The notes beneath the pieces are model-generated. The model searched no databases, was not told the origin of the DNA, and worked only from the letters and a program-made list of their open reading frames with translations. From Phascolarctobacterium sp. (GTDB taxonomy: Bacteria; Bacillota; Negativicutes; Acidaminococcales; Acidaminococcaceae), in NCBI RefSeq assembly GCF_030531065.1, contig NZ_JAUNOQ010000003.1, forward strand, positions 62,001-126,000: a stretch of DNA of 64,000 nucleotides. Reading direction: 5' to 3'. Below are positions 168-13,231 of the stretch, in pieces. Every line of letters begins with the position of its first letter. Position 1 is the first letter of the stretch. The position numbers and the translations under genes are program-made.

Positions 168-2885
168 TTAAACCAATTGCCGTTTAACCAAAGAGGCGAA
201 TACCCCTCCCATATTTATAAGTTCATAATAACTGCCGCTTTCCACTATGCGCCCCTTGTCCATAACTAAAATACGGTCGACGTTTTGCACGGTACTCAAG
301 CGATGTGCAACGATAATTCTTGTCACACGCATAGCGTCTATACTATCGGACACCTTTTTCTGCGTCACATTGTCCAAAGCGCTGGTGGCCTCGTCCATAA
401 TGATAATCCTAGGATTATTTACCAAAGCACGCGCTAATAAAATCCTTTGCTTCTGCCCGCCGGAAATATTACCGGCGCCCTCGCTGATAATAGTTTCCAT
501 GCCCATGGGCATATTCATAATATCCTTATCCAGCCCTACCTTTTCTGCCGCCTTCCACGCGTCTTCCCTCGTCAAAGGCAGTGTGCCGACTATATTATCA
601 AAAATTCGCCCCGTTAAAAGCCGACCGTTTTGCAAAACCACGCCCATCTGCGAGCGCACCGACGTTATGTCGATGTCCTCTAAATTATATCTGTCATAAT
701 AAATCGCCCCATATGCAGGTTTTTCAAAGCCCAATAACAACCTTATAAGAGTGGACTTGCCGCAGCCGCTTGTCCCGACAATAGCCACCGCCTCTCCCTC
801 TTTAATATGCAGCGTTAAATTATCCAACACCATAGGTGCATTCTCGTCATACCTGAAAGATACTTTTTCTAAATCAATATCTCCGCGTAAAACGCCAACC
901 TCTATATTATCAGAAGCAACCTCCGGAACGGTCTCCAAGACGGGAACCAGTCGCTCAAGATTAGGTTTAATGTTTAACAAATCACTAATCGTTGGCACTA
1001 CAGAAATAATAACGGCATTAAAACCGCTAAAGGCGGCCTGGAAAGCTAAAAAGGTTGCATAATCCATATCCGGATTAGCGCCCTGGGCCGCCGCTTCTTT
1101 AATCCAATGCATGGTCATCGCATAAATTATCAGTGGCAATAAAAATCCCAAAACAGTATTTACCGCTTCAAGATAATTGCGCTGCCTGCGTTTTTTTACG
1201 TTCCAACGCCATTGTTCGCCGAATAATTTGGCCCATAAAGAATACGCTTGCTTTTCCGCGCCAGCTATCCTGAATTTATTCAAGCCGTTAAATATTTGTA
1301 AAACCAAAGCGGTTACCTTGCCGGATGCAATTACTATCTGCCTGTTTATACGCACAATATTATAATATATTACGCCTACAATCAGCAGATAGACAAACCA
1401 CAAGGCCAAAGCGACAACAGTAAGCTTAGCGCTGTAATACAGCATCAATGCCAAACTCCAGAAAGAAAACGCCATATTAAACACAGCGCCGATACTGCTT
1501 CCCATTAACGAGTCGCATATACCGTGAATACTTTCTATACGAGTAAAAAGCTCGCCCACTTGATATTTACGGAAAAAACTCATCGGCAAAGACAGCACCC
1601 GCAGCATAATACCGCTGCTTAATTTTATATCGACGCTATTCTTTATGCGCATGATGGCAATATTGCGCGCATAGCCAATCCCCGCCATAGTAAAAGCGGA
1701 AACCAACAGCACCTGCGTAACCGTGCTCAGCGCCCGCCGATCGTTAATCGGTATTATATCGCTAAAAATAGTTCCTGTAATCAACGGCGTAAGCAGCGGC
1801 ACCATGCCCGCAATAACGCTTATGAGCATAATCGCCGCAAGATCGTGCTTCCAGATATTCCGCAATACAAAGTTCAGCAAATCGCGCAGATTCAATTTAG
1901 GCTGCGTCAAAGCGGCGTAGCATACGAAAAAATTCTCCTGCAGTAATGCCGCTACGCTTTCGTCAACGCTAACCCCCAAAGGCTGGCTGGCGCTATAAGC
2001 TTTATAGCTTGTCGGCGTATCGGGCAGCAAAGCCGCCGGTTCGCCGGTATCCTTCCAAAATCCTATCAGCACGCCGCTATCGTTCCTATACCAAGCGTTA
2101 TCCGGCTTTACCAAGCGCACATATACCCCTAGCCTCCGCAGCATTTTTTGCAGCAAGGATACGGCGTCGCCATTACTGCTTTCCAAATCCTGAAATTTTG
2201 CTACAGGCAAGGCAAAATATCTTGCTACGGCTTTTACCACCAATAAAACAGGTTTACCGCCGTCTTCCAAAGCGTTGGCGGCATAAGCCAGCTCCCGCCG
2301 TTCCGTATGCAATAAATTAGCGGCGGCGGCAGCCATGAGATTATCCTGCTGTTGCGCGCGGTTAACAAAGCTGAGTCTGGCCTGCTCCAGCTTTGCTTTA
2401 AATTCTTGCTGCGCTGCCGCTGCTAAAAGCCGACGGCTGTAGCAAAACTCCAACCAAATAGTTTCTTCCGGTGTTTCGCCTGTCAAGACGTCCTCTGCCT
2501 GGGAAAGTCCGTTGTAGATATCGCTATAACGAAGCCAGCGGCAGTCTTTAGTACTATAAAACCATTGGTTCATTTTGCGCCGCAAATAAGTCAGCTTTTC
2601 TCTTTCAGGCTCCGCCTGCAAAAGCTCCGCCACGGTTATAAAGGCAATCTCGCAATCTTCCAAGGCGGATATGTACAAGCCTATTTCTTTATTGTCCGGT
2701 ACATTAAAAACCAAATGCCCTTCGCCGACCGTCATCAGATAAAGCTGCTGATAGTCTACGCCTTCTTCCCCGCGCGTCAAATAGACTTCCGCCTGCCCGT
2801 GTACGAGCTGGATAATCTGCTCCTCGCCGTACAGCGCGAAGCGCTTTCCCTGAGGCAATACTTCTTTTTTATAAAACTTAAACAC
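168..2885 (-). CDS. NHLM-type peptide export ABC transporter, ATP-binding/permease (ABC2)
   Basis: A 905-residue half-transporter of the NHLM (nitrile-hydratase-leader microcin) type, expected to sit in the inner membrane and help export the peptides encoded upstream. The first 90 or so residues resemble a cyclic-nucleotide-binding/cupin barrel. A long degenerate region follows, then a six-helix membrane domain from about residue 350. The ABC ATPase is complete: Walker A GTSGCGKST near 705, signature ISGGQKQR near 812 and Walker B IIIMDEATSALD near 830. Unlike its partner it has no C39 peptidase domain, which is the usual arrangement of the second NHLM transporter. It is the last gene of the operon, 12 bp after the peptidase-containing transporter. 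Confidence 0.9.
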   Translation of the reverse strand: MFKFYKKEVLPQGKRFALYGEEQIIQLVHGQAEVYLTRGEEGVDYQQLYLMTVGEGHLVFNVPDNKEIGLYISALEDCEIAFITVAELLQAEPEREKLTYLRRKMNQWFYSTKDCRWLRYSDIYNGLSQAEDVLTGETPEETIWLEFCYSRRLLAAAAQQEFKAKLEQARLSFVNRAQQQDNLMAAAAANLLHTERRELAYAANALEDGGKPVLLVVKAVARYFALPVAKFQDLESSNGDAVSLLQKMLRRLGVYVRLVKPDNAWYRNDSGVLIGFWKDTGEPAALLPDTPTSYKAYSASQPLGVSVDESVAALLQENFFVCYAALTQPKLNLRDLLNFVLRNIWKHDLAAIMLISVIAGMVPLLTPLITGTIFSDIIPINDRRALSTVTQVLLVSAFTMAGIGYARNIAIMRIKNSVDIKLSSGIMLRVLSLPMSFFRKYQVGELFTRIESIHGICDSLMGSSIGAVFNMAFSFWSLALMLYYSAKLTVVALALWFVYLLIVGVIYYNIVRINRQIVIASGKVTALVLQIFNGLNKFRIAGAEKQAYSLWAKLFGEQWRWNVKKRRQRNYLEAVNTVLGFLLPLIIYAMTMHWIKEAAAQGANPDMDYATFLAFQAAFSGFNAVIISVVPTISDLLNIKPNLERLVPVLETVPEVASDNIEVGVLRGDIDLEKVSFRYDENAPMVLDNLTLHIKEGEAVAIVGTSGCGKSTLIRLLLGFEKPAYGAIYYDRYNLEDIDITSVRSQMGVVLQNGRLLTGRIFDNIVGTLPLTREDAWKAAEKVGLDKDIMNMPMGMETIISEGAGNISGGQKQRILLARALVNNPRIIIMDEATSALDNVTQKKVSDSIDAMRVTRIIVAHRLSTVQNVDRILVMDKGRIVESGSYYELINMGGVFASLVKRQLV

Positions 2886-2897
2886 GTTATTGCCTCC

Positions 2898-5051
2898 TCA
2901 ATTTTCCACCAGCACGCGATAAAGACCCGCTTGCGCCATCAGCTCGTCATGAGTGCCGCGCTGTATTATCTTGCCCTTATCCATAACGATAATTTCGTCG
3001 CAATCGCGAATCGTACTCAACCTATGGGCTACAATTAAGCAGGAACAGCCGCGCCTGCGGATATTGTCCAACACTCTTTTTTCCGTAAGCGGGTCTAAAG
3101 CGCTTGTCGCCTCGTCCAAAACCAGCATTGCCGGATTATGCACCAAAGCGCGCGCCAGCTCCATTCTTTGCCGTTGCCCGCCGCTGAAATTCTTGCCGCC
3201 TTCGTCTACAGGCGCTTCATAACCGCCGTCAAGCTGCATAATAGTTTCGTCGATTTCCGCGTCTATCGCGGCTTCGCGCACATCCTTCGGCGTAATATTT
3301 TCGTCAAATAAGGTTATATTATCGCGTACCGAACCGGAAAAGAGAAATATTTCCTGATTAACAGCCGCGACGCCGTACGAAAGCAAATTTCTATTTAACT
3401 GTTGCCGTTCATAGCCGTCAAATAAAATTTTCCCGTCCCACGGTTTTTCTTCCCCTAAAACTAATTTTGCAACCGTTGACTTACCGCAGCCGCTGCCGCC
3501 TACCAAAGCGACCCAACGCCCCGGCCGCAAGTGCAAATTAAAATTTTCCAGTAACGGCGCAGATAATTTACTGTAGCCAAAAGTAAGGTTTTCCATACGC
3601 AGCTCGCCGCTAAAATAATCCTTCTGCGCCGTATTTTCCGAAGAATTATATAAGTAATCGTCCTTAGGGTAATTATAAATATCGTCCAAACGCCTCAGCA
3701 TCATTTCGGTATTTTGCAGCCCCTGTCCTAAGGACAGCAATTTATTAACAGGCTCAGAAAAATTTCCCATAAGCATTTTAAAAGCTATAAAAGTACCGGC
3801 TGATAAAACTCCGTCCATGATTTGAAAGCCGCCGATAGTCATAATTAAAGCCACGTTAACGCCGCCCAAAAATTCCGGCAGCAAGCTTACGTTTTGACTG
3901 ATAAACTGAATCTTTTGGCTTTCCTTCATCATTTTATTTTGCGCCCCGGACCATTTAGCAAAAAAGTCCGCTTCATTGCCGTTAGCCTTTAACGTATCGA
4001 TGGACTGCAAGCCGTTGATGGTAATGGCCTGCAAAACGCCGTTTTCCTGCAGCATGAGCATGGCTTTTTCCATAATAAAGCTGCGCATTTTAAACAAAAC
4101 GGCAATATTGAGAGCGCTGAACAACAAGCCAATCAGCGTAAGGGTTATGCTGTACTGGAACAGCAGCGCCAAATAAAAAATAGCAATAAACGTATCTATA
4201 ACGGCAGTAGCTGCCTGCCGCGTCAGCATATCGGCTACCGATAAATTAAAGCCTATTCTGGAAGCTATTTCTCCCGCATGACGCTGCTGGAAAAAGCTGC
4301 CTGGCAAATGCAAAATATGCCACAAGAATCTTCCGGAATCCTGCAAGGTCAGCTTCGTTTGCCAGCGCGTCAGGCTCCATGAACGCAGACCCACTAAAAA
4401 AGCCTGCACTATACCCGTAAACGCCAACGCCAATAAAACGTTAAAATTCCAATCGGCATGACGCATAGTGATTACGTCGTCTAAAAACGTTTCGCTGATT
4501 GCAGGTATAGCTAAACCCGGCACGACCATGCACAAGCTTAAAATACTGATAAACAACGTCGCTTTGCGATCAGCTAACAGCTTCTGCCCTAAAACGCGAC
4601 GTATATTATATTTTTTGCCGCCTGGCTTAAACGCCGCATCGGGCTCCATGTGCAGCGCGATACCGGTATACGAATAGCAAAATTTTTTAAAATCAATCGT
4701 TCTGTGCCCCGCCGCAGGGTCGTTAAGATAAACCTTATCACCCTCTATTCCCTCTAAAACTACAAAATGATTAAATTCCCAATGCAAAATTGCGGGCCAC
4801 GGTTTATCGCGCAAGCTTTCCGCCTTCCAGCGAAATCCGCTCGCCTTCATATTATAATTTCTCGCGGCTTTTACAATGTTCAGCGCCTTACTTCCGTCGC
4901 GGCCGATGCCGCAGTCCTGACGTAATTGCTCCAATGGCACCCACAAGCCGTAATAAGCCAAAACCATAGCTAAAGACGCGGCGCCGCATTCCACAGCCTC
5001 CATTTGCAGAATGGACGGCGTTTTAACATGTTTTCTTTTTTTATCAGTCAT
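2898..5051 (-). CDS. NHLM-type C39 peptidase-containing ABC transporter (ABC1)
   Basis: Bifunctional exporter that would cut precursors after a double glycine and move the released part across the inner membrane. The N-terminal C39 peptidase shows its catalytic Cys in VECGAAS near residue 22, the His in FNHFVVLEG and the Asp in NDPAAG. A membrane domain follows, then an ATPase with Walker A GGSGCGKST near 517, FSGGQRQR near 624 and LVLDEATSALD near 647. I chose the ATG at 5051 (717 residues). It overlaps the end of the preceding adaptor gene by a few bases, which is typical of translational coupling. An upstream in-frame ATG at 5111 would add 20 residues unlike the family. The double-glycine precursors in the same operon are its obvious substrates. 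Confidence 0.92.
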   Translation of the reverse strand: MTDKKRKHVKTPSILQMEAVECGAASLAMVLAYYGLWVPLEQLRQDCGIGRDGSKALNIVKAARNYNMKASGFRWKAESLRDKPWPAILHWEFNHFVVLEGIEGDKVYLNDPAAGHRTIDFKKFCYSYTGIALHMEPDAAFKPGGKKYNIRRVLGQKLLADRKATLFISILSLCMVVPGLAIPAISETFLDDVITMRHADWNFNVLLALAFTGIVQAFLVGLRSWSLTRWQTKLTLQDSGRFLWHILHLPGSFFQQRHAGEIASRIGFNLSVADMLTRQAATAVIDTFIAIFYLALLFQYSITLTLIGLLFSALNIAVLFKMRSFIMEKAMLMLQENGVLQAITINGLQSIDTLKANGNEADFFAKWSGAQNKMMKESQKIQFISQNVSLLPEFLGGVNVALIMTIGGFQIMDGVLSAGTFIAFKMLMGNFSEPVNKLLSLGQGLQNTEMMLRRLDDIYNYPKDDYLYNSSENTAQKDYFSGELRMENLTFGYSKLSAPLLENFNLHLRPGRWVALVGGSGCGKSTVAKLVLGEEKPWDGKILFDGYERQQLNRNLLSYGVAAVNQEIFLFSGSVRDNITLFDENITPKDVREAAIDAEIDETIMQLDGGYEAPVDEGGKNFSGGQRQRMELARALVHNPAMLVLDEATSALDPLTEKRVLDNIRRRGCSCLIVAHRLSTIRDCDEIIVMDKGKIIQRGTHDELMAQAGLYRVLVEN

Positions 5052-6003
5052 TGCGCAACCAATTGCTGAGCTTGCCGAAAACTTTGCTGATAGGAGGCTT
5101 TCTTTCGACAATTATCATCCCGCTGTAAACGCTGCCGGGAGTAACCATAATATTATTATCAATCACCGACGACCATAAATATCCGCTGCTATTATCCTTA
5201 TCACGAATCAATTCCACATGGATTTCCATCGCCGCTCCGTCGCATTTTTCCAACGCCACGTCCGCCAGCGCTTTGTTGCCTAACGTCTTGACCATACGCT
5301 CCGCGCTCACGGGATATTCCGAAGTTTCGCGTACTATCCCCAGCAAGCTACCGTATTCCGAAGCGTCGATATCGTTAGGCTGCATTTGCACAACCATGCC
5401 CGGCTTAACCTTTTTGCCGCCTGCAGCCGGAGCATACATTACGCCGTGCATATCGTTGCTCTTCTGGTCGCGGCGAACGGAAAATAAATCCGTTCCTGCG
5501 CCGACAACAGACCCATCGGTTATTTTTATTTCGCTGACGATGCCGTCGAACGGGCTGTACACATAACGGTAAGTATCGTATTTTTGCGTAATACTATCGT
5601 ATTGCGCTAAGCTCGACATAGCGTCGGTATTTGATTTTGCCAGGCCGATACTATATTCGGCCATAATTTTATCCTCCGCCAAATCCGGCTGCTGCAATAC
5701 CGCCAGCAAATCTCCCGCCTTAACGCGCGCGCCTTTATGAACATAAATTTTTTCTATCTGTCCCGAACTCAAACTTTCTACATTAACTATACCGCCGGAA
5801 TCGACGAGCATACCAAAGCCGTTGACTTTTTCGGCAATAACGCCGAAGACAGACCACACGCAAACGGATAATACCAATAACGCTACCGCAAGCAAAGCCG
5901 CCCAGCCGCCCAAAGGAATAATCGTCAGCAGGGAATCCATCTGATCCGGATTGCGTAAACGCTCCAAGGCCTGACTGCTAAAAAGCTTCTCTGATTCCTT
6001 CAC
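5044..6003 (-). CDS. NHLM-type HlyD-family secretion protein
   Basis: Periplasmic adaptor (membrane fusion protein) of 319 residues. It has one N-terminal membrane helix (about 30-52), followed by a lipoyl/barrel-sandwich half (GQIEKIYVHKGARVKAGD). The matching second half, SPFDGIVSEIKITDGSVVGAG, comes after an unusually short connector, so there is little or no alpha-helical hairpin. This compact form is characteristic of NHLM-system adaptors. It overlaps the genes on both sides (26 bp with the upstream adaptor, 8 bp with the peptidase transporter), so the export genes form a tightly coupled block. In a diderm cell it would link the ABC transporter to the periplasm or an outer-membrane channel encoded elsewhere; no TolC-like gene is in the window. 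Confidence 0.88.
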   Translation of the reverse strand: MKESEKLFSSQALERLRNPDQMDSLLTIIPLGGWAALLAVALLVLSVCVWSVFGVIAEKVNGFGMLVDSGGIVNVESLSSGQIEKIYVHKGARVKAGDLLAVLQQPDLAEDKIMAEYSIGLAKSNTDAMSSLAQYDSITQKYDTYRYVYSPFDGIVSEIKITDGSVVGAGTDLFSVRRDQKSNDMHGVMYAPAAGGKKVKPGMVVQMQPNDIDASEYGSLLGIVRETSEYPVSAERMVKTLGNKALADVALEKCDGAAMEIHVELIRDKDNSSGYLWSSVIDNNIMVTPGSVYSGMIIVERKPPISKVFGKLSNWLRND

Positions 6004-7165
6004 GCCTGTACACCTCCACCTTCGCGCCTTCCTGCAAGCCTTCCTTGCCGGAAATTATAACCTCGTCGCCTTCCTCAAGCCCACTTAAAATTTCTGTATA
6101 TGTATCGTTAGCAGCGCCCGTAGTTACCTTTCGTAACTGCAGGCGTTTGTTTTCATCCACAATAAACGCTGCCTTTCGCTCATCGTCGATATTGAAAAGC
6201 GCTTTATTATCTACGCACAACGCTTTATAGCTAATAGCGTCGACTATTTTTACATCTCTATATACGCCCGTTTCCAAAAGCCCGGCTCTGTTGTCAACCT
6301 TCCAAGTGATAGTATAAATAGGAGCCTCCACATCTAAAGGCGGTTCTGTTTCCGCCAACGCAAGCTTAACTTTATTTTCTATATTCTGCCCCTGCAGCTT
6401 ATATGAAGAATCAAAACCTTTTTCCAAAAAATCCGCTTCATTAAACACTAAATATTGTTCCGATTCGGACAAGCGTAAATTCTTGACGTCCCTATAGGAA
6501 AGATTTTTTTGAAAATAAAGCTCGCGAAAATCTCCGATTAAAGCGACGGACTGACCCTTCTGCACATAATCGCCTTTTTCGGCGTATAAGAGTAGCGCTT
6601 CGCCGTCCAGCGGAGCTGTAACCGCCTGATTGCCGTGCATATTTTTTAATTGCTGGTATTCCGCTTCCAAAACCTCTACCTCGGTGGCGGCGGCTTTAGC
6701 CGCCGCTATATAAGAATCGTATTCCGAACGCGAAACTGCGCCAACCTTCACCAACGTCGCCCTGCGCTCCTTATCCGCCTCAACCTTGACATATTCCGCC
6801 TGCGCCGCCGCTATCTTGCTTTGCAGCTTGGACAATTCCAAATCCATATCGTCGTTATGGATTTTATATAAAACCTGCCCGCGTTTTACCGCTTGGCTCT
6901 TTTGCACATAAACGTCCGTCACCCTGCCTTCAACGCGGGCGACGACGTCCGTCATGGTTTCGGAAAATAATTTTATACTGCCATAGCTGTACTGAGGCGC
7001 CAACATCCTGTAGCCTACTTCGGCTACTGTCAACGAATGAGCGCGTTCCTCCATCATTTTAGCTATGTTGTTTTCACTTTTAATATTCAAATAAAACCCA
7101 TAAACAACGAGCGCAGCGCTCAACGCAATAACGCCGCCCACCGCGTAAAGAAAATATTTTTTCAT
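5978..7165 (-). CDS. HlyD/RND-type periplasmic adaptor protein
   Basis: A second adaptor, 395 residues, with an N-terminal membrane anchor (about 5-25). A lipoyl half-motif near VEGRVTDVYVQKSQAVKRGQ is followed by a coiled-coil hairpin (about 130-195) and the second lipoyl half, TAPLDGEALLLYAEKGDYVQKGQ. Beta-barrel and membrane-proximal domains end in ILSGLEEGDEVIISGKEG. This is the full-length adaptor architecture, in contrast to the compact NHLM adaptor that follows it, so this export block has two different adaptors. It begins about 90 bp after the last short double-glycine peptide. Which transporter it pairs with cannot be told from sequence. Confidence 0.85.
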   Translation of the reverse strand: MKKYFLYAVGGVIALSAALVVYGFYLNIKSENNIAKMMEERAHSLTVAEVGYRMLAPQYSYGSIKLFSETMTDVVARVEGRVTDVYVQKSQAVKRGQVLYKIHNDDMDLELSKLQSKIAAAQAEYVKVEADKERRATLVKVGAVSRSEYDSYIAAAKAAATEVEVLEAEYQQLKNMHGNQAVTAPLDGEALLLYAEKGDYVQKGQSVALIGDFRELYFQKNLSYRDVKNLRLSESEQYLVFNEADFLEKGFDSSYKLQGQNIENKVKLALAETEPPLDVEAPIYTITWKVDNRAGLLETGVYRDVKIVDAISYKALCVDNKALFNIDDERKAAFIVDENKRLQLRKVTTGAANDTYTEILSGLEEGDEVIISGKEGLQEGAKVEVYRREGIREAF

Positions 7166-7254: not shown

Positions 7255-7482
7255 TCACCATTCTCCTGAACGTAAAAGGTTTTCCACCTTTTTCAAGTTA
7301 CTATCCTCCAACTCCTTTTTCATTTTGTTTAACATAAAAGTATCCGTCGAGTAGCTGCCGCCTAAGCCCGCTCGTTTCACCCCGCTACATTCTATACTGC
7401 CGCCGCCTGCTACCGCTTCCATTTCTTTTTCCGTAAGCTGTTCATTTTTGGCATTGGCGATAAATTCTTTGTTCCCCTCCAT
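7255..7482 (-). CDS. Double-glycine leader peptide precursor A (C-terminus probably frameshifted)
   Basis: Small precursor of 75 residues. Residues 1-28 form a leader, NKEFIANAKNEQLTEKEMEAVAGG, nearly identical to those of the two neighbouring short peptides and ending in the double glycine recognised by C39 peptidases. The rest (one Cys, several Gly, then a charged helix-like stretch) is unlike the other two cores. The reading frame stops at SGEW, and the conserved V-V/I-W-K-T ending lies just beyond in another frame. The start follows an AAGGA-type ribosome site. It is the last of seven precursor genes before the export genes. Function of the mature peptide is unknown; bacteriocin or signal are both possible. 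Confidence 0.75.
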   Translation of the reverse strand: MEGNKEFIANAKNEQLTEKEMEAVAGGGSIECSGVKRAGLGGSYSTDTFMLNKMKKELEDSNLKKVENLLRSGEW

Positions 7483-7512: not shown

Positions 7513-7689
7513 TTAATTCTTGGTTTCCCAAATTACCGACTTTTTCGCTTCCTCCTCTAGTATCCTAATCAGCTCTTTGGGTTTCTGAAACTCCAGCTTA
7601 TAGAGGCTGCCGCCTGCTACCGCTTCCATTTCTTCGTTCGTAAGCTGCTCGCTTTTAGCATTAGCGATAAATTCTTTGTTCTTTTCCAT
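7513..7689 (-). CDS. Double-glycine leader peptide precursor B (58 aa)
   Basis: Short gene read directly from the minus strand. The 58-residue product begins MEKNKEFIANAKSEQLTNEE and continues to the double glycine at residues 26-27. The leader is almost identical to those of peptides A and C. The 31-residue core has no Cys and is Leu/Glu/Lys-rich, ending AKKSVIWETKN. The start has an AAGGA ribosome site 8-9 bases upstream. The K-S-V-I-W spacing at the end equals the Lys-x3-Trp spacing found in streptide, which is suggestive because a radical SAM enzyme sits in the operon, but no crosslink can be claimed. Too short for many gene callers. Confidence 0.8.
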   Translation of the reverse strand: MEKNKEFIANAKSEQLTNEEMEAVAGGSLYKLEFQKPKELIRILEEEAKKSVIWETKN

Positions 7690-7717: not shown

Positions 7718-7873
7718 TTAATCCTCGGTTTTCCAAATTACCGGCTTTTTCACTTCGCTCAAGAAAGCTGGCGCCTTAACTCTCAACTTTAAGTCGCTAC
7801 CCCCTGCTACCTTTTCCATTTCCTCGTTCGTAAGCTGCTCATTTTTGGCATGATCGATAAATTTTTTGTCCAT
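7718..7873 (-). CDS. Double-glycine leader peptide precursor C (51 aa)
   Basis: Short gene read directly from the minus strand. It encodes 51 residues: MDKKFIDHAKNEQLTNEEME, then a double glycine at residues 24-25, then a 26-residue core ending VKKPVIWKTED. It has an AGGAGGTAATGA-type ribosome site directly upstream of the ATG. Leader and C-terminal motif are shared with precursors A and B, while the middle of the core differs, so these three form a paralogous family. It lies 21 bp after the last crystallin-like precursor and is probably on the same transcript. The product is likely cut and exported by the C39 transporter of the operon. Confidence 0.8.
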   Translation of the reverse strand: MDKKFIDHAKNEQLTNEEMEKVAGGSDLKLRVKAPAFLSEVKKPVIWKTED

Positions 7874-7893: not shown

Positions 7894-8526
7894 CTAAAAA
7901 TCCCTCGCCACGAATTTTCCACAGCCGGGAGCGTGGATATCGCATTTATTGCATTTCTTGCCGCCGGCCACCGCCAGCAAATCATCGTCCGTTAATTCTT
8001 CTTTGATGCCGAAGTTAATGCGCACGTCGTCCTGTCCCAAAGTAAACAGCAGAACCTTAGCGTATCCGTCAATTTTTTCGTCGACTACGCATTCCTCGTT
8101 TTCAAAAATTCTTACGGCGTGTCCATCCTCAACATTACCTGCAAACACCGCGTAAAAACCGCGCGGTACGATTACTTTATCGAACTCTTTTAATTCCGCC
8201 GCCATGTATTCGCCCTCCGGCAACGCTTTAACAGCCTCGCCTTTGATTCCTTGGGCGTAAGTTTCTATCACCGCTAATTTAGGAACAAAAGGAATTTTTA
8301 TGTCCGCACAATCCTTATCGACGGTAAAATTTTTGCCGCTGCCGTCGGCATTTTCATAAAACGCCGCTCGCGTAAAATCCGCAACCTTAACGGAACCGAC
8401 GACGGAAAAATCTCCGGCGCTATACTCGCCGCGTTTTAAGCGATTGCAATTTCCCTGATAAAAAGCTTTAGCAAAAATTTGCACAAAGCTCGCGCTTTCG
8501 CTGCTGTTTATAAAACGCATTGCCAC
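7894..8526 (-). CDS. Beta/gamma-crystallin-like peptide precursor 1 (core C-x2-C-x6-C)
   Basis: A 210-residue precursor. Residues about 13-72 and 84-150 each read like a beta/gamma-crystallin domain: YQGNCNRLKRGEY and FYENADGSGKNFTVDKDC in the first, IKGEAVKALPEGEY and VPRGFYAVFAG in the second. A leader-like stretch follows (FGIKEELTDDDLLAVAGG, glycines at 188-189) and then a 21-residue Lys/Cys tail with CNKC and PGC. The tail is the likely mature peptide and the double glycine the C39 cut site. It is the most diverged of the three two-domain copies. No signal peptide is seen. That the crystallin-like part works as an oversized leader or carrier is inference; it could also be a separate product. 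Confidence 0.8.
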   Translation of the reverse strand: MAMRFINSSESASFVQIFAKAFYQGNCNRLKRGEYSAGDFSVVGSVKVADFTRAAFYENADGSGKNFTVDKDCADIKIPFVPKLAVIETYAQGIKGEAVKALPEGEYMAAELKEFDKVIVPRGFYAVFAGNVEDGHAVRIFENEECVVDEKIDGYAKVLLFTLGQDDVRINFGIKEELTDDDLLAVAGGKKCNKCDIHAPGCGKFVARDF

Positions 8527-8555
8527 TCCCCTCCCTAAATTTTATTTTTCAAACG

Positions 8556-8996
8556 TCATCTGGTTACAAGATGTTCGATGCAAAAACGATAGCTGTCATC
8601 CAGCGGTCCTTTATGCTCGGCGCATAAGGAGGGGCAGTCGGTAACAAATATTCTGCAGCTCTCCTTGCGTTTGCCGCCAGCCACAGCTAATAAATCCTCG
8701 TCGCTCAGTTCTTCCTTAATACCTAAATCGATATGTATACCTCGCTTTCCCAGGTTGAATATTAAAATTTTATTATATTCGTCAAGATGCGAATCGATTA
8801 CGCACGCTTCATTTTCAAACACCCTGACCTTATTCTTATCCTCTTGGTGAGCAACAAACGCCGCATAAAAACCTCGCGGCAATAATATTTTGTCAAACTG
8901 TTTTAGCTCTTCCGCAAGGTATTCCCCTTCCGGCAACTGTATTATATTTTCTCCGCGCACGCCTTTAGCGTAACTGTCTGCCTCGTAAACTAACAT
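8556..8996 (-). CDS. Single-domain beta/gamma-crystallin-like peptide precursor 2 (38-residue core)
   Basis: A 146-residue paralogue that lacks the first crystallin-like domain of its neighbours. It starts directly at the second one (MLVYEADSYAKG, LPEGEY, LPRGFYAAF, VRVFENEACV). It keeps the leader end LGIKEELSDEDLLAVAGG (glycines at 107-108). The core is the longest and most divergent: 38 residues with four Cys. A good AAGGAG ribosome site 6-7 bases before the ATG indicates a genuine gene and not a broken copy. It shows that one crystallin-like domain plus the LSDEDLLAVAGG segment may be enough for processing. Confidence 0.78.
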   Translation of the reverse strand: MLVYEADSYAKGVRGENIIQLPEGEYLAEELKQFDKILLPRGFYAAFVAHQEDKNKVRVFENEACVIDSHLDEYNKILIFNLGKRGIHIDLGIKEELSDEDLLAVAGGKRKESCRIFVTDCPSLCAEHKGPLDDSYRFCIEHLVTR

Positions 8997-9082
8997 ACGT
9001 TGCTCCTTATTTTTCAGCAGGCGAAAAATAGCCAGAGCGACGAACTAATACATCCGCCGCTTGGCCACGCCGTCAGTATATC

Positions 9083-9727
9083 TTATAACCCTACCTCGAT
9101 ACCAGTACGGTTACCGCAGAAAGTGCCGCTGCCGGCGCCCGCTTTAATTTTATTGCCGCAGCCCTTGCCGCCGGCCACTACCAGCAAATCGTCGTCCGTC
9201 AATTCTTCTTTGATGCCGAAATTGATGCGCACGTCGTCCTTACCTAAGGTGAACAACAAAACCTTAGCGTATTCGTCAACCTTGCCGTCAATAACGCATT
9301 CTTCGTTTTCAAAAATTCTTACGGTGTGCTCGTCCTCGTTGTTACCGGCAAATACTGCGTAAAAGCCGCGCGGCACGATTACCTTATCGAACTCTTTTAA
9401 TTCCGCCGCCGTATATTCTCCCTCCGGCAATTCTTTGGCAACGTCGCCCTTAAATCCTTTGGCATAAGTTTCTACCACCGTTAATTGCGGCGCAAAAGCT
9501 ACCTCCGCCGCAGCGCAGTCCTTGTCCACGATTACGTGCTTGCCGCTGCCGTCGGCATTTTCATAAAACGCAACGCGCGTAAAATCAGCAACCTTAATTG
9601 AGCCTACAGCCTTAACGTCGTCGTATTCGCCGCGCGCCAGCTTGAGCGCTTCGCCCTGGTACCCAGCCGCCGCAAAAATTTCCGCAACGCTTTCCGTCGC
9701 CACCGTGCTCACAAAATTCATTTTCAT
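9083..9727 (-). CDS. Beta/gamma-crystallin-like peptide precursor 3 (CGN...CGN core)
   Basis: A 214-residue precursor very similar to precursor 4 up to the double glycine (residues 186-187). Domain one covers about 13-71 (GYQGEALKLARGEY, FYENADGSGKHVIVD). Domain two covers about 82-148 (LPEGEYTAAELKEF, VPRGFYAVFAG, RIFENEECV). The leader end reads LTDDDLLVVAGG. The 27-residue core is Gly-rich and contains two CGN motifs (KGCGNKI and TFCGNRT). High identity to precursor 4 in the crystallin part, with an unrelated core, suggests recent duplication with diversification of the tail. It has a GAAGG ribosome site nine bases before the ATG. Confidence 0.8.
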   Translation of the reverse strand: MKMNFVSTVATESVAEIFAAAGYQGEALKLARGEYDDVKAVGSIKVADFTRVAFYENADGSGKHVIVDKDCAAAEVAFAPQLTVVETYAKGFKGDVAKELPEGEYTAAELKEFDKVIVPRGFYAVFAGNNEDEHTVRIFENEECVIDGKVDEYAKVLLFTLGKDDVRINFGIKEELTDDDLLVVAGGKGCGNKIKAGAGSGTFCGNRTGIEVGL

Positions 9728-9811
9728 AGCGCTTAACCTTCTTTCAATACAAAAATTTTTCAGAAAAACATTATCCTACATCCGTTGATAACAGAACCGG
9801 GGAAAATAAAA

Positions 9812-10459
9812 TTATTTTTTCACATTGCCAATGGAATCGTTACCGCAGGAATCAAACGGATTGCAATCGCCCATCTCAATATCGTTGCCGCAGGCTTTGC
9901 CGCCAGCCACTGCCAGCAAATCGTCGTCCGTCAATTCTTCTTTGATGCCGAAATTGATGCGCACGTCGTCCTTGCCCAAAGTGAACAGCAAAACCTTCGC
10001 GTATTCGTCAACCTTGCCGTCGATAACGCATTCTTCGTTTTCAAAAATTCTTACGGTATGCTCGTCCTCGCTGTTACCGGCGAACACCGCATAGAAGCCG
10101 CGCGGCACGATTACTTTATCGAACGCTTTTAATTCCGCCGCCGTATATTCGCCCTCCGGCAATTCTTTAACGGCGTCGCTCTTAATTCCTTTAGCGTAAG
10201 TTTCTACCACCGTTAATTGCGGTGCAAAAGCTACTTCCACCGCAGCGCAGTTCTTGTCCACAACGACGTGCTTGCCGCTGCCGTCGGCGTTTTCATAAAA
10301 CGCAACGCGCGTAAAATCCGCAACCTTGACGGAGCCCACGGCTTTGACGTCGGCGTACTCGCCGCGAGCCAGCTTTGCCGCCTCTCCCTGATATCCTGCC
10401 GCTGCAAAAATTTCCGCAACGCTTTCCGTAGCTACTGTGCTCACAAAACTCATTTTCAT
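9812..10459 (-). CDS. Beta/gamma-crystallin-like peptide precursor 4 (CGN...C...CGN core)
   Basis: First precursor after the maturase, 215 residues. Residues 13-71 and 82-148 fit two beta/gamma-crystallin domains by their alternating G/Y-x-G...GEY and V-x-FYEN patterns. Residues 150-187 (FTLGKDDVRINFGIKEELTD onward to the double glycine) look like the docking and cleavage part of a RiPP leader. The 28-residue core has three Cys (ACGN, GDCN, DSCGN). The 42-bp gap to the radical SAM gene, with an AGGAGG site in it, suggests the two are expressed together. I know of no described RiPP precursor with crystallin-like domains; that judgement is from memory only. Confidence 0.8.
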   Translation of the reverse strand: MKMSFVSTVATESVAEIFAAAGYQGEAAKLARGEYADVKAVGSVKVADFTRVAFYENADGSGKHVVVDKNCAAVEVAFAPQLTVVETYAKGIKSDAVKELPEGEYTAAELKAFDKVIVPRGFYAVFAGNSEDEHTVRIFENEECVIDGKVDEYAKVLLFTLGKDDVRINFGIKEELTDDDLLAVAGGKACGNDIEMGDCNPFDSCGNDSIGNVKK

Positions 10460-10501: not shown

Positions 10502-11875
10502 CTAAACAAATTCTTCCGCTTGCGCCATATTCTCATTTATCGCGTATAATTGCAGCCGCTCGCGTAAATTATTTTTCAAGCTGCGGCAGGACGCGCCATA
10601 AGCTCCCGTTTTATCAGCGCAGCCCCCTGCGCACTGCGGCAGCGCTATACATTCGTAGCATTCCTCATATTTCAAGAGCGGCCGCGTCAGCCAATTCTGA
10701 TAAAGCTTGTTCTCATAAATTTTTTGGCAATCGCCGATATTGCCGACGCTCAGCTTGGCGTCGGATACCGTGTTCCAGCATTTATGCACACTTCCGTCCG
10801 GCAAAATCACAAAGCTGTTTCTGCGCACAGCGCCGCACAAGCTGCCCAATCTTATCGGCAGCCCCGGCGTATGTAATTTTAAAGCGACGGCTTTCTTTAA
10901 AAGTTTCAGCTCCAACGCGCTAAAATTTTCCAAGCTCATTACTTCGTCCGCATTTAAACCGGCCGTCCCTATTCCGATATCCACGGGCGCAAAATAAACG
11001 TTAAAATTTTCGCGCCCGCCAAAGCCCTGCTCGCTTAAATAGAGCAATAAATTTTCTATACTGTCCTTATTGCGTTGGTCAATATTCACTCTGATATTAA
11101 AATTCAGCTTGTTTTCAAGAACTACATTCCGCAAATTCTCCATAATCGCGGCAAACGTAGCTCCGCCTCCTTTTAAATAACGGCGGCTGTCGTGCGCCTG
11201 CGCGTCTCCGTCTATGGTTATCTGCACGGAACTGATTTTGCATTGCGCCAGTCTGTCCGCTACCGCAAACGTCAAGTTGAAACCGTTCGTTACGATACTC
11301 GCGCTGTAATCGCAGCCGTTATTTTCACATAGAGATAATATTTTCCCTGTCAAGCTTTCGATAACGGGCACGGCCAGCAAAGGCTCGCCGCCATACCACG
11401 TAATATGCACGCCTTTTTTATCGTAAATATTATTCCCAATGAAATTAAGAACTTGCTCCTGCACTCTTTGCTCCATAGGTTTGCTTGCGTCATGCAATCC
11501 CTGAAAGCAATAATCGCAGGCAAAATTGCAGGCCATGGTAGGAGCGACGGTTAAAGAAAGCGCTTTTTCCTTTTTATTTTTTAAGATAGCAATAGCTTGC
11601 TCGAAAAGTTTTAATTCGTCGCTGGCTTTTTTCAGGACGAACATTTCATGGATAAGGCTATCCAAAAACTTACTTAAATAAAGCTGGCTTGGCGCAAGCC
11701 TCGCCGCCTCCCGCTGGCTGCCTCCGCCCGCCAATAAATCGTAAATTGCTTTTTCCAAAGCCGTCCAGCGTTTGCAAACGCCGCCCATGCCGCTGTAAGC
11801 GAGCGCTCCGTCCTGCAGCGGCAACAAAATATTAAACTTCGACGGCTTATATAAATTGATATTGCGGTAAATCAT
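10502..11875 (-). CDS. Radical SAM/SPASM peptide maturase
   Basis: A 457-residue radical SAM enzyme, expected to reduce SAM and modify the precursor cores of this operon. An N-terminal region of about 100 residues could contain a peptide-binding (RRE/PqqD-like) domain. The canonical CxxxCxxC for the [4Fe-4S] cluster is at Cys116, Cys120 and Cys123 (ACNFACDYCFQG), followed by WYGGEPLL. The C-terminal SPASM region has many Cys (GSLCGAVRR, HKCWN, EECYECIALPQCAGGCAD, ASCRS) for auxiliary clusters. This architecture is typical of thioether-forming sactipeptide and ranthipeptide enzymes and of sulfatase maturases. No sulfatase is present, while Cys-rich cores lie just downstream. Bond type and residue specificity cannot be read from sequence. 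Confidence 0.9.
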   Translation of the reverse strand: MIYRNINLYKPSKFNILLPLQDGALAYSGMGGVCKRWTALEKAIYDLLAGGGSQREAARLAPSQLYLSKFLDSLIHEMFVLKKASDELKLFEQAIAILKNKKEKALSLTVAPTMACNFACDYCFQGLHDASKPMEQRVQEQVLNFIGNNIYDKKGVHITWYGGEPLLAVPVIESLTGKILSLCENNGCDYSASIVTNGFNLTFAVADRLAQCKISSVQITIDGDAQAHDSRRYLKGGGATFAAIMENLRNVVLENKLNFNIRVNIDQRNKDSIENLLLYLSEQGFGGRENFNVYFAPVDIGIGTAGLNADEVMSLENFSALELKLLKKAVALKLHTPGLPIRLGSLCGAVRRNSFVILPDGSVHKCWNTVSDAKLSVGNIGDCQKIYENKLYQNWLTRPLLKYEECYECIALPQCAGGCADKTGAYGASCRSLKNNLRERLQLYAINENMAQAEEFV

Positions 11876-11913: not shown

Positions 11914-12822
11914 TTATTTTGCTGTTCTATCTTTATAGAAGGTAGTTAATTTTATTTCTTTGCTGCCCGGGAACGAAACCGGCAGCTTCCCCAACATATT
12001 GGTAAGTTTTTTATCGGCCGCGTCAATATTAAAAATTACTTTCTTTATTTTGTCAGGCGAGGCGGCTACATATTCTAAAGTTTTCAGCAAAGTCCAGACG
12101 CCCACGCCGGTATTTTTATAGCTGTCCAAACAAGCGCGGCAAGATACTTCCGCCACCTGAGGATTATTTGGCAATTCCGTTAAAGCGAGATAACCCACCG
12201 TTTTCTCATTTTTAATTACTAAAAAGCTTCCCTCGTCGATTCTCTTACGCCTTTCGCTAAACGGATCCAGATATGAGGGATAAGCTTTTCCTATTTCATC
12301 TTTAATTTGCCGTAAACTTTCCGCGTCGGCTTCGCAGAAATTTTTTATAACGAAGCGGCGTTTTTTCATAAAAGAATCCAATCTGTCGCCTTCTTCAGCC
12401 ATATATTTATGAAAAACGCTTCTGGTATGAGGCGTACTGGTGTTGATAACGCTGATGGATTCTTTTTTTACGTAAAACCCTGACTTTTCAACAACCCGGC
12501 GCAAAGCAGCGTTTTTCTCCACAACAAATTCCAAAGCAACAGAGCGGCAGCCTTGAGCGAAAAAATTTTCCGCAGCATAAAGCAAAAGTTTTTGCGCAAT
12601 CCCCTGATTACGCATTTCTTTCTTGACAGAAATATATTTAATCATGCCTACGCCATCGGCGCTTATTTCGCCAAAAACCGCTCCGCCATATTGTTCGCAA
12701 TCGTCTACGGCAACAAAGACTTCGCACTCGCCCTTTAAAGCAATTTTTGCATAATACAGAAACAAATTGCTTTCATCAAAAGCCAACGCTTTTCCTTTTA
12801 TTAAATAATTTTGCAAAATCAT
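11914..12822 (-). CDS. Tandem GNAT-family acetyltransferase
   Basis: First gene of the peptide operon, 302 residues. Residues about 1-130 form a complete GNAT domain with the acetyl-CoA motif NQGIAQKLLLYA and the C-terminal GFYVKKE strand. Residues about 150-295 are a second, weaker GNAT-like fold (FVIKNFCEADAESLRQIKDE, DSYKNTGVGVWTLLKTLEYV). Possible roles are N-acetylation of a peptide product, which could protect the producer or finish the peptide, or an unrelated acetylation. The operon position favours a link to the peptides. The ATG is preceded by an AGGTG-type site, and the promoter lies about 65 bp upstream. Confidence 0.8.
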   Translation of the reverse strand: MILQNYLIKGKALAFDESNLFLYYAKIALKGECEVFVAVDDCEQYGGAVFGEISADGVGMIKYISVKKEMRNQGIAQKLLLYAAENFFAQGCRSVALEFVVEKNAALRRVVEKSGFYVKKESISVINTSTPHTRSVFHKYMAEEGDRLDSFMKKRRFVIKNFCEADAESLRQIKDEIGKAYPSYLDPFSERRKRIDEGSFLVIKNEKTVGYLALTELPNNPQVAEVSCRACLDSYKNTGVGVWTLLKTLEYVAASPDKIKKVIFNIDAADKKLTNMLGKLPVSFPGSKEIKLTTFYKDRTAK

Positions 12823-12886: not shown

Positions 12887-12915
12887 ATTATAACACGCTT
12901 GTCCCCCCCCGACAA
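12887..12915 (-). promoter_or_regulatory. Promoter of the peptide operon with a G8 tract in the spacer
   Basis: On the minus strand TTGTCG (12910-12915) and a perfect TATAAT (12887-12892) are separated by exactly 17 bases, seven of them G continuing a run of eight. The G run is enclosed by a perfect 7-bp inverted repeat (GCTTGTC/GACAAGC), which may be an operator. A homopolymer inside the spacer means slippage would change the -35/-10 distance, as in known phase-variable promoters. Confidence 0.75.
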
Positions 12916-13154: not shown

Positions 13155-13231
13155 GGCCTCATAGCTCAGCTGGATAGAGCGTTTGACTACGAATCAAAAG
13201 GTCGCAGGTTCGAGTCCTGCTGAGGTCACCA
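13155..13231 (+). tRNA. tRNA-Arg (anticodon ACG)
   Basis: A 77-base tRNA including an encoded CCA. The acceptor stem GGCCTCA pairs with TGAGGTC; the D arm, the anticodon loop CTACGAA closed by TTTGA/TCAAA, and the T arm GCAGG-TTCGAGT-CCTGC are all present. The anticodon ACG reads CGN arginine codons after A-to-I editing. It lies on the strand opposite to the neighbouring genes and is the insertion-prone landmark next to the peptide operon. Confidence 0.95.

Follow-up and report, generated by a model that had tools for sequence, protein, structure and literature searches.

Tandem double-glycine peptide precursors with a probably crystallin-like leader beside a radical SAM/SPASM enzyme and an NHLM exporter in Phascolarctobacterium sp.

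Introduction

The leaders of RiPP precursors are usually short and unstructured, and the known large ones resemble nitrile hydratase and Nif11 proteins. In the nitrile hydratase-like leader peptides, or proteusins (TIGR03793), a long folded leader and a leader-like segment ending in GG go together with NHLM exporters and a hypervariable core (PMC2887384, PMC10858898). A solved proteusin leader consists of a rigid domain and a disordered leader-like segment; an LxxxxL motif in this loose segment binds one modifying enzyme, and the rigid domain is dispensable for that enzyme (PMC10858898). For another modifying enzyme, modelling indicates a direct contact with the folded leader (PMC12455567). 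Precursors with Nif11-like leaders (TIGR03798) have the same kind of GG segment and export, and a ELSDEELEAVAGG-type motif has been tabulated for both Nif11 and NHLP precursors (PMC2887384).

The present study describes four tandem genes for such precursors, P1 to P4, in Phascolarctobacterium sp. The window, the stretch of 64,000 nucleotides that was analysed, lies within a 197 kb contig of a draft genome of 2.37 Mb (99.5% complete). P1-P4 share the long leader, the GG-ending segment, the hypervariable core and the NHLM exporters with the proteusins, and the GG segment and export type with the Nif11-like precursors. However, their leader is not nitrile-hydratase-like and they are without a Nif11-like region; neither TIGR03793 (the NHLP leader model) nor TIGR03798 matched P1-P4 at E<=10. 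The leader is instead likely to be crystallin-like, as judged from its sequence.

Results

The window contains a run of 13 genes in one direction on the minus strand, from 12822 down to 168, which by spacing and strand would form a single operon. The order in the run is a GNAT-like gene, a radical SAM/SPASM gene, P1-P4, three short double-glycine peptides, an RND-type adaptor, an NHLM HlyD-like gene and two NHLM ABC transporters. A promoter-like site (12887..12915; TTGTCG-17-TATAAT with an extended -10), called by a consensus scan only, lies upstream of the run; this site and all features of the run are on the minus strand. The first gene (11914..12822) codes for a GNAT-family acetyltransferase-like protein, which is RimI-like and scores below the family cut-offs. 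The second gene (10502..11875) codes for a radical SAM/SPASM peptide maturase of 457 residues with CNFACDYC at residue 116, and a gap of 42 bp separates it from P1. PF04055 and SPASM matched this enzyme above cut-off. The best model for it is TIGR04463, which describes radical SAM/SPASM maturases of Cys-rich peptides, yet its score of 344 bits is below the equivalog cut-off of 525; the enzyme is therefore not placed in that equivalog and is read from its domains as a radical SAM/SPASM maturase outside it. Its nearest homologue in the class is 37% identical.

The NHLM export set is complete and every member exceeds the curated TIGR cut-off. ABC1 (2898..5111; TIGR03796, 945 bits; PF03412) combines a C39 peptidase with a permease and an ATPase and is predicted to cut after GG, ABC2 (168..2885; TIGR03797, 756 bits) is the second export ABC transporter, and the HlyD-like secretion protein is encoded at 5044..6003 (TIGR03794, 220 bits). 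An RND-type periplasmic adaptor gene (5978..7165; TIGR01730, 175 bits, above cut-off) is placed between the short peptides and the NHLM HlyD gene.

The four tandem genes that the initial annotation had placed at 7894-10459 are all present as minus-strand open reading frames and code for proteins of 146-215 residues. P1 (9812..10459, 215 aa, with a Shine-Dalgarno sequence) is made up of two modules, a double-glycine segment and the tail KACGNDIEMGDCNPFDSCGNDSIGNVKK. Its module 1 (residues 8-89, 10193..10438), with two Greek-key-like motifs, is crystallin-like by Pfam Crystall, by a profile of PDB crystallins and by hhalign; module 2 (residues 84-173, 9941..10210) aligns as a diverged copy of module 1, and its ELPEGEYTAAEL is matched by the crystallin profile. 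The double-glycine segment LTDDDLLAVAGG (9899..9934) is followed by a divergent predicted core peptide (9815..9898) of 28 residues with 3 Cys. P2 (9083..9727, 214 aa) has two modules and a core of 27 residues with 2 Cys (9086-9166). P3 (8556..8996, 146 aa) has the second module only and a core of 38 residues with 4 Cys (8559-8672), and P4 (7894..8526, 210 aa), which starts with GTG, has two modules and a core of 21 residues with 3 Cys (7897-7959). These figures agree with the initial annotation, which had given one or two modules per protein and Cys-bearing tails of 21-38 residues. A purine-rich, Shine-Dalgarno-like stretch is found 5' of each of the four genes; it is weakest at P2, and P3 has its own AAGGAGC.

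The leader reaches GG after 187 residues in P1 and P2, 108 in P3 and 189 in P4, and in each case it ends in the cleavage segment L[TS]D[DE]DLL[AV]VAGG, present as LTDDDLLAVAGG in P1 and P4, LTDDDLLVVAGG in P2 and LSDEDLLAVAGG in P3. This segment matches the ELSDEELEAVAGG-type motif. The residues ahead of GG are V at -4, L at -7 and L at -12 in all four precursors, which is the recognition rule of LahT150, a characterised C39 protease (PMC6363468); P1-P4 thus have the hydrophobic residues at -4, -7 and -12 that mark C39 (PCAT/NHLM) substrates. Between P1 and P2, 173 of 187 leader residues are identical (dN 0.035, dS 0.46, dN/dS 0.08), as against 11 of 26 in the tail (dN 0.61, dS 1.31, dN/dS 0.47). 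This contrast exceeds chance and is the conserved-leader, variable-core pattern of double-glycine precursors. For the initial annotation, an invariant tail or one with no connection to export genes would have spoken against its reading; the tails were found to diverge, and the NHLM exporter lies in the same putative operon together with the radical SAM gene. By this context it is nearly certain that P1-P4 are exported double-glycine precursors.

Three further double-glycine peptides in the run have short leaders. pep3 (7718..7873), which is without a crystallin-like part, has a leader of 25 residues and a core of 26; pep2 (7513..7689) has 27 and 31, and pep1 (7255..7482) has 27 and 48 and reaches 15.8 bits with the bacteriocin signal model TIGR01847 (cut-off 15.7). 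Their cores contain no Cys or one. The cores of pep2 and pep3 have similar ends (KKSVIWETKN and KKPVIWKTED) and are without Cys; for this reason, these two may be unmodified peptides that share the exporter with P1-P4.

The crystallin character of the leader was examined at the level of motifs, Pfam families and profiles. Module 1 contains the Greek-key signature F-x4-Y-x-G, and a G-E-Y turn is found in both modules. On scanning whole proteins against Pfam, P1, P2 and P4 matched Crystall at 16.6-17 bits. Among the isolated modules three of seven matched it (E=0.0005-0.0007, best 0.00054; P1 module 1 with 20.1 bits, E 0.0007), and Crystall was the most frequent and by far the strongest match, with other families far behind. 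None of P1-P4 or their modules reached the gathering score of Crystall (PF00030), 25 bits. Since noise in six-frame scans of 380 genomes reached 20.3 bits, the Pfam match alone is not proof, and a small crystallin profile was therefore built from the PDB sequences of two Protein S domains and clostrillin. With this profile, P1, P2 and P4 took the first, second and third place among 4,043 open reading frames (15.8-17.0 bits; best decoy 11.3), and for P1 and for P4 none of 5,000 shuffles equalled the real score. P3 alone scored 1.1 bits, which 140 of 5,000 shuffles matched or exceeded, and gives no support; module 2 by itself carries little crystallin signal. When a profile of the seven modules was aligned with the crystallin profile by hhalign, the probability was 86% and the score 33.7 over 39 columns, against 16.6 for the best of 150 column shuffles.

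The resemblance thus exceeds chance, except for P3 alone, by three partly independent tests, which rely on the same few sequences and on a crystallin idea picked by eye beforehand. Of all Pfam families, the beta/gamma-crystallins are at this level the one that the leader resembles most. Modules 1 and 2 are 16-24% identical and BLASTP gave no alignment of module 1 with P3, so the case for a duplication is made by similarity at the level of profiles. The microbial beta/gamma-crystallins (Protein S, clostrillin) are the best sequence match, sharing the Greek-key-like motifs, the G-x-Y turn and the paired modules, but P1-P4 differ from them in scoring below the Pfam cut-off, in having a shorter loop, in the absence of the calcium motif [ND][ND]xx[ST]S from all four proteins, and in being fused to a probable exported core.

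AlphaFold2 was run with alignments of the window's own paralogues only, and both models are too uncertain to name a fold. The full leader gave pLDDT 36 with a 4-row alignment, and one module gave pLDDT 63 and pTM 0.51 with a 7-row alignment. The latter model has a helix in place of the first crystallin strand and a short beta meander; Foldseek and VIA-align returned unrelated low matches for it (Z about 3 or less), and no crystallin was among the matches listed. The proposal of a crystallin-like leader in the initial annotation is thus upheld as a resemblance in sequence by Pfam, profile and hhalign, while the crystallin fold itself is a candidate reading.

Relatives of the leader were sought widely and the leader is known from one genome. 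Searches of 380 class genomes, GTDB contigs, IMG/VR, plasmids and phages, of the bacterial family with the module profile, and of a phylum sample yielded none besides the window's own genes. Weak matches within the same family were read as chance; one that recurs resembles histidinol dehydrogenase, by eye. No crystallin-like precursor turned up at 24 loci around homologues of the radical SAM enzyme or at 60 NHLM loci from the class, and the homologues that the initial annotation had hoped for, pairing this leader with a GG tail in other genomes, did not appear. Its statement that the class is undescribed fits our searches, as no curated NCBIfam family covers the leader and no paper describing a crystallin-type leader was found in the literature searches. 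True crystallins above cut-off were found in none of the 380 class genomes and in 2 of 239 genomes of the phylum sample. NHLM exporters above cut-off occur widely in the class, with 122 of 380 genomes having one, and the double-glycine precursors beside them in the window's family look Nif11-like, by eye.

A matching NHLM ABC1 was found in none of the six congeners searched, several of whose genomes are incomplete. The YfcE-RdgB block next to the operon is conserved in congeners without the NHLM cluster. A tRNA-Arg (acg) gene at 13155-13231 adjoins the operon and borders this block, and its position makes it a possible island junction. The congeners without a matching ABC1, the conserved block and the tRNA-Arg gene in between would together be consistent with a gene island acquired by the lineage.

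Discussion

The present study argues that P1-P4 are, somewhat more probably than otherwise, radical-SAM-modified peptide precursors made of a crystallin-like domain, a double-glycine segment and a variable Cys-bearing core. In the mechanism that we propose, the leader domain would fold as a crystallin and could serve as a handle gripped by the radical SAM enzyme, or keep the precursor soluble. The crystallin-like part could offer a surface for docking, aid solubility or act as a brake on folding. The radical SAM enzyme would bind the leader and modify the Cys-containing cores, presumably by forming cross-links at the Cys residues. NHLM ABC1 would then cut after GG during export, and ABC1, ABC2 and the adaptors would export the core, a product that is probably bacteriocin-like. 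That the radical SAM enzyme modifies the cores, and that the product is bioactive, are both plausible.

The precursors follow the same plan as the proteusin leader, with a domain, then LTDDDL and then GG. By this analogy P1-P4 could work like NHLP/proteusin precursors, yet they belong to neither the NHLP nor the Nif11 family. The best reading is a new variant of the folded leader beside the nitrile-hydratase-like and Nif11 leaders, seen in one genome and with a predicted maturation. The bolder proposal, that a duplicated beta/gamma-crystallin module with a double-glycine segment forms a third class among the folded leaders of RiPPs, with a folded part that docks or holds the radical SAM maturase, is in our view evenly poised. 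If a crystallin-type leader is true, it would mean that stable folds of more than one kind can become the handle of a precursor.

It could be that the long leader is folded but has another beta-rich fold, and that its likeness to crystallins is weak and fortuitous, or goes back to a very distant relationship. The Pfam match under cut-off, the poor score of module 2 alone and the uncertainty of both AlphaFold2 models, the better of which is a short beta meander with small matches of Z about 3 or less, all leave room for it. Nevertheless, crystallin is by far the strongest Pfam family for the modules, the profile tests with shuffles clearly favour it, and the models are too weak to name a different fold; we regard another fold as unlikely, though it is the most serious of the alternatives. 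Less probable again is that P1-P4 are ordinary class II-like unmodified bacteriocins which acquired an N-terminal domain, the radical SAM enzyme acting elsewhere. The three short-leader neighbours, whose cores have one Cys at most, do look unmodified, but the radical SAM gene lies directly 5' of P1 and the Cys-bearing P1-P4 are substrates at hand.

It was also considered whether P1-P4 act as whole proteins, for example as intracellular crystallin-like immunity or carrier proteins from which the GG tail is not released. Crystallin folds are mostly stable domains that stand on their own, and the leader far exceeds the tail in size and is also the better conserved of the two. Against this, C39 recognition residues occur beside a C39 exporter, four paralogues have divergent Cys-bearing tails, and the radical SAM enzyme is within the same gene run, which makes action as whole proteins highly improbable. 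The preferred reading of P1-P4 thus remains that of modified precursors with a cleaved, exported core.

With a crystallin-type leader, the operon would offer a natural comparison, since precursors with two modules, with one and with no such domain apparently use one exporter. To judge from P3 and the short peptides, not every precursor requires module 1, and the presence of three short-leader peptides in this operon suggests that export by itself can proceed without the crystallin-like domain.

Two other loci were noted in passing. A double-glycine protein near an NHLM exporter in locus L151 (16441-17070) has a leader of 125 residues of no recognised type. In locus L177 (5482-6880), two precursors of 225 and 267 residues seem, by eye, to have tandem nitrile-hydratase-like leader repeats before GG, and they look like a further instance in which a folded leader has been duplicated.
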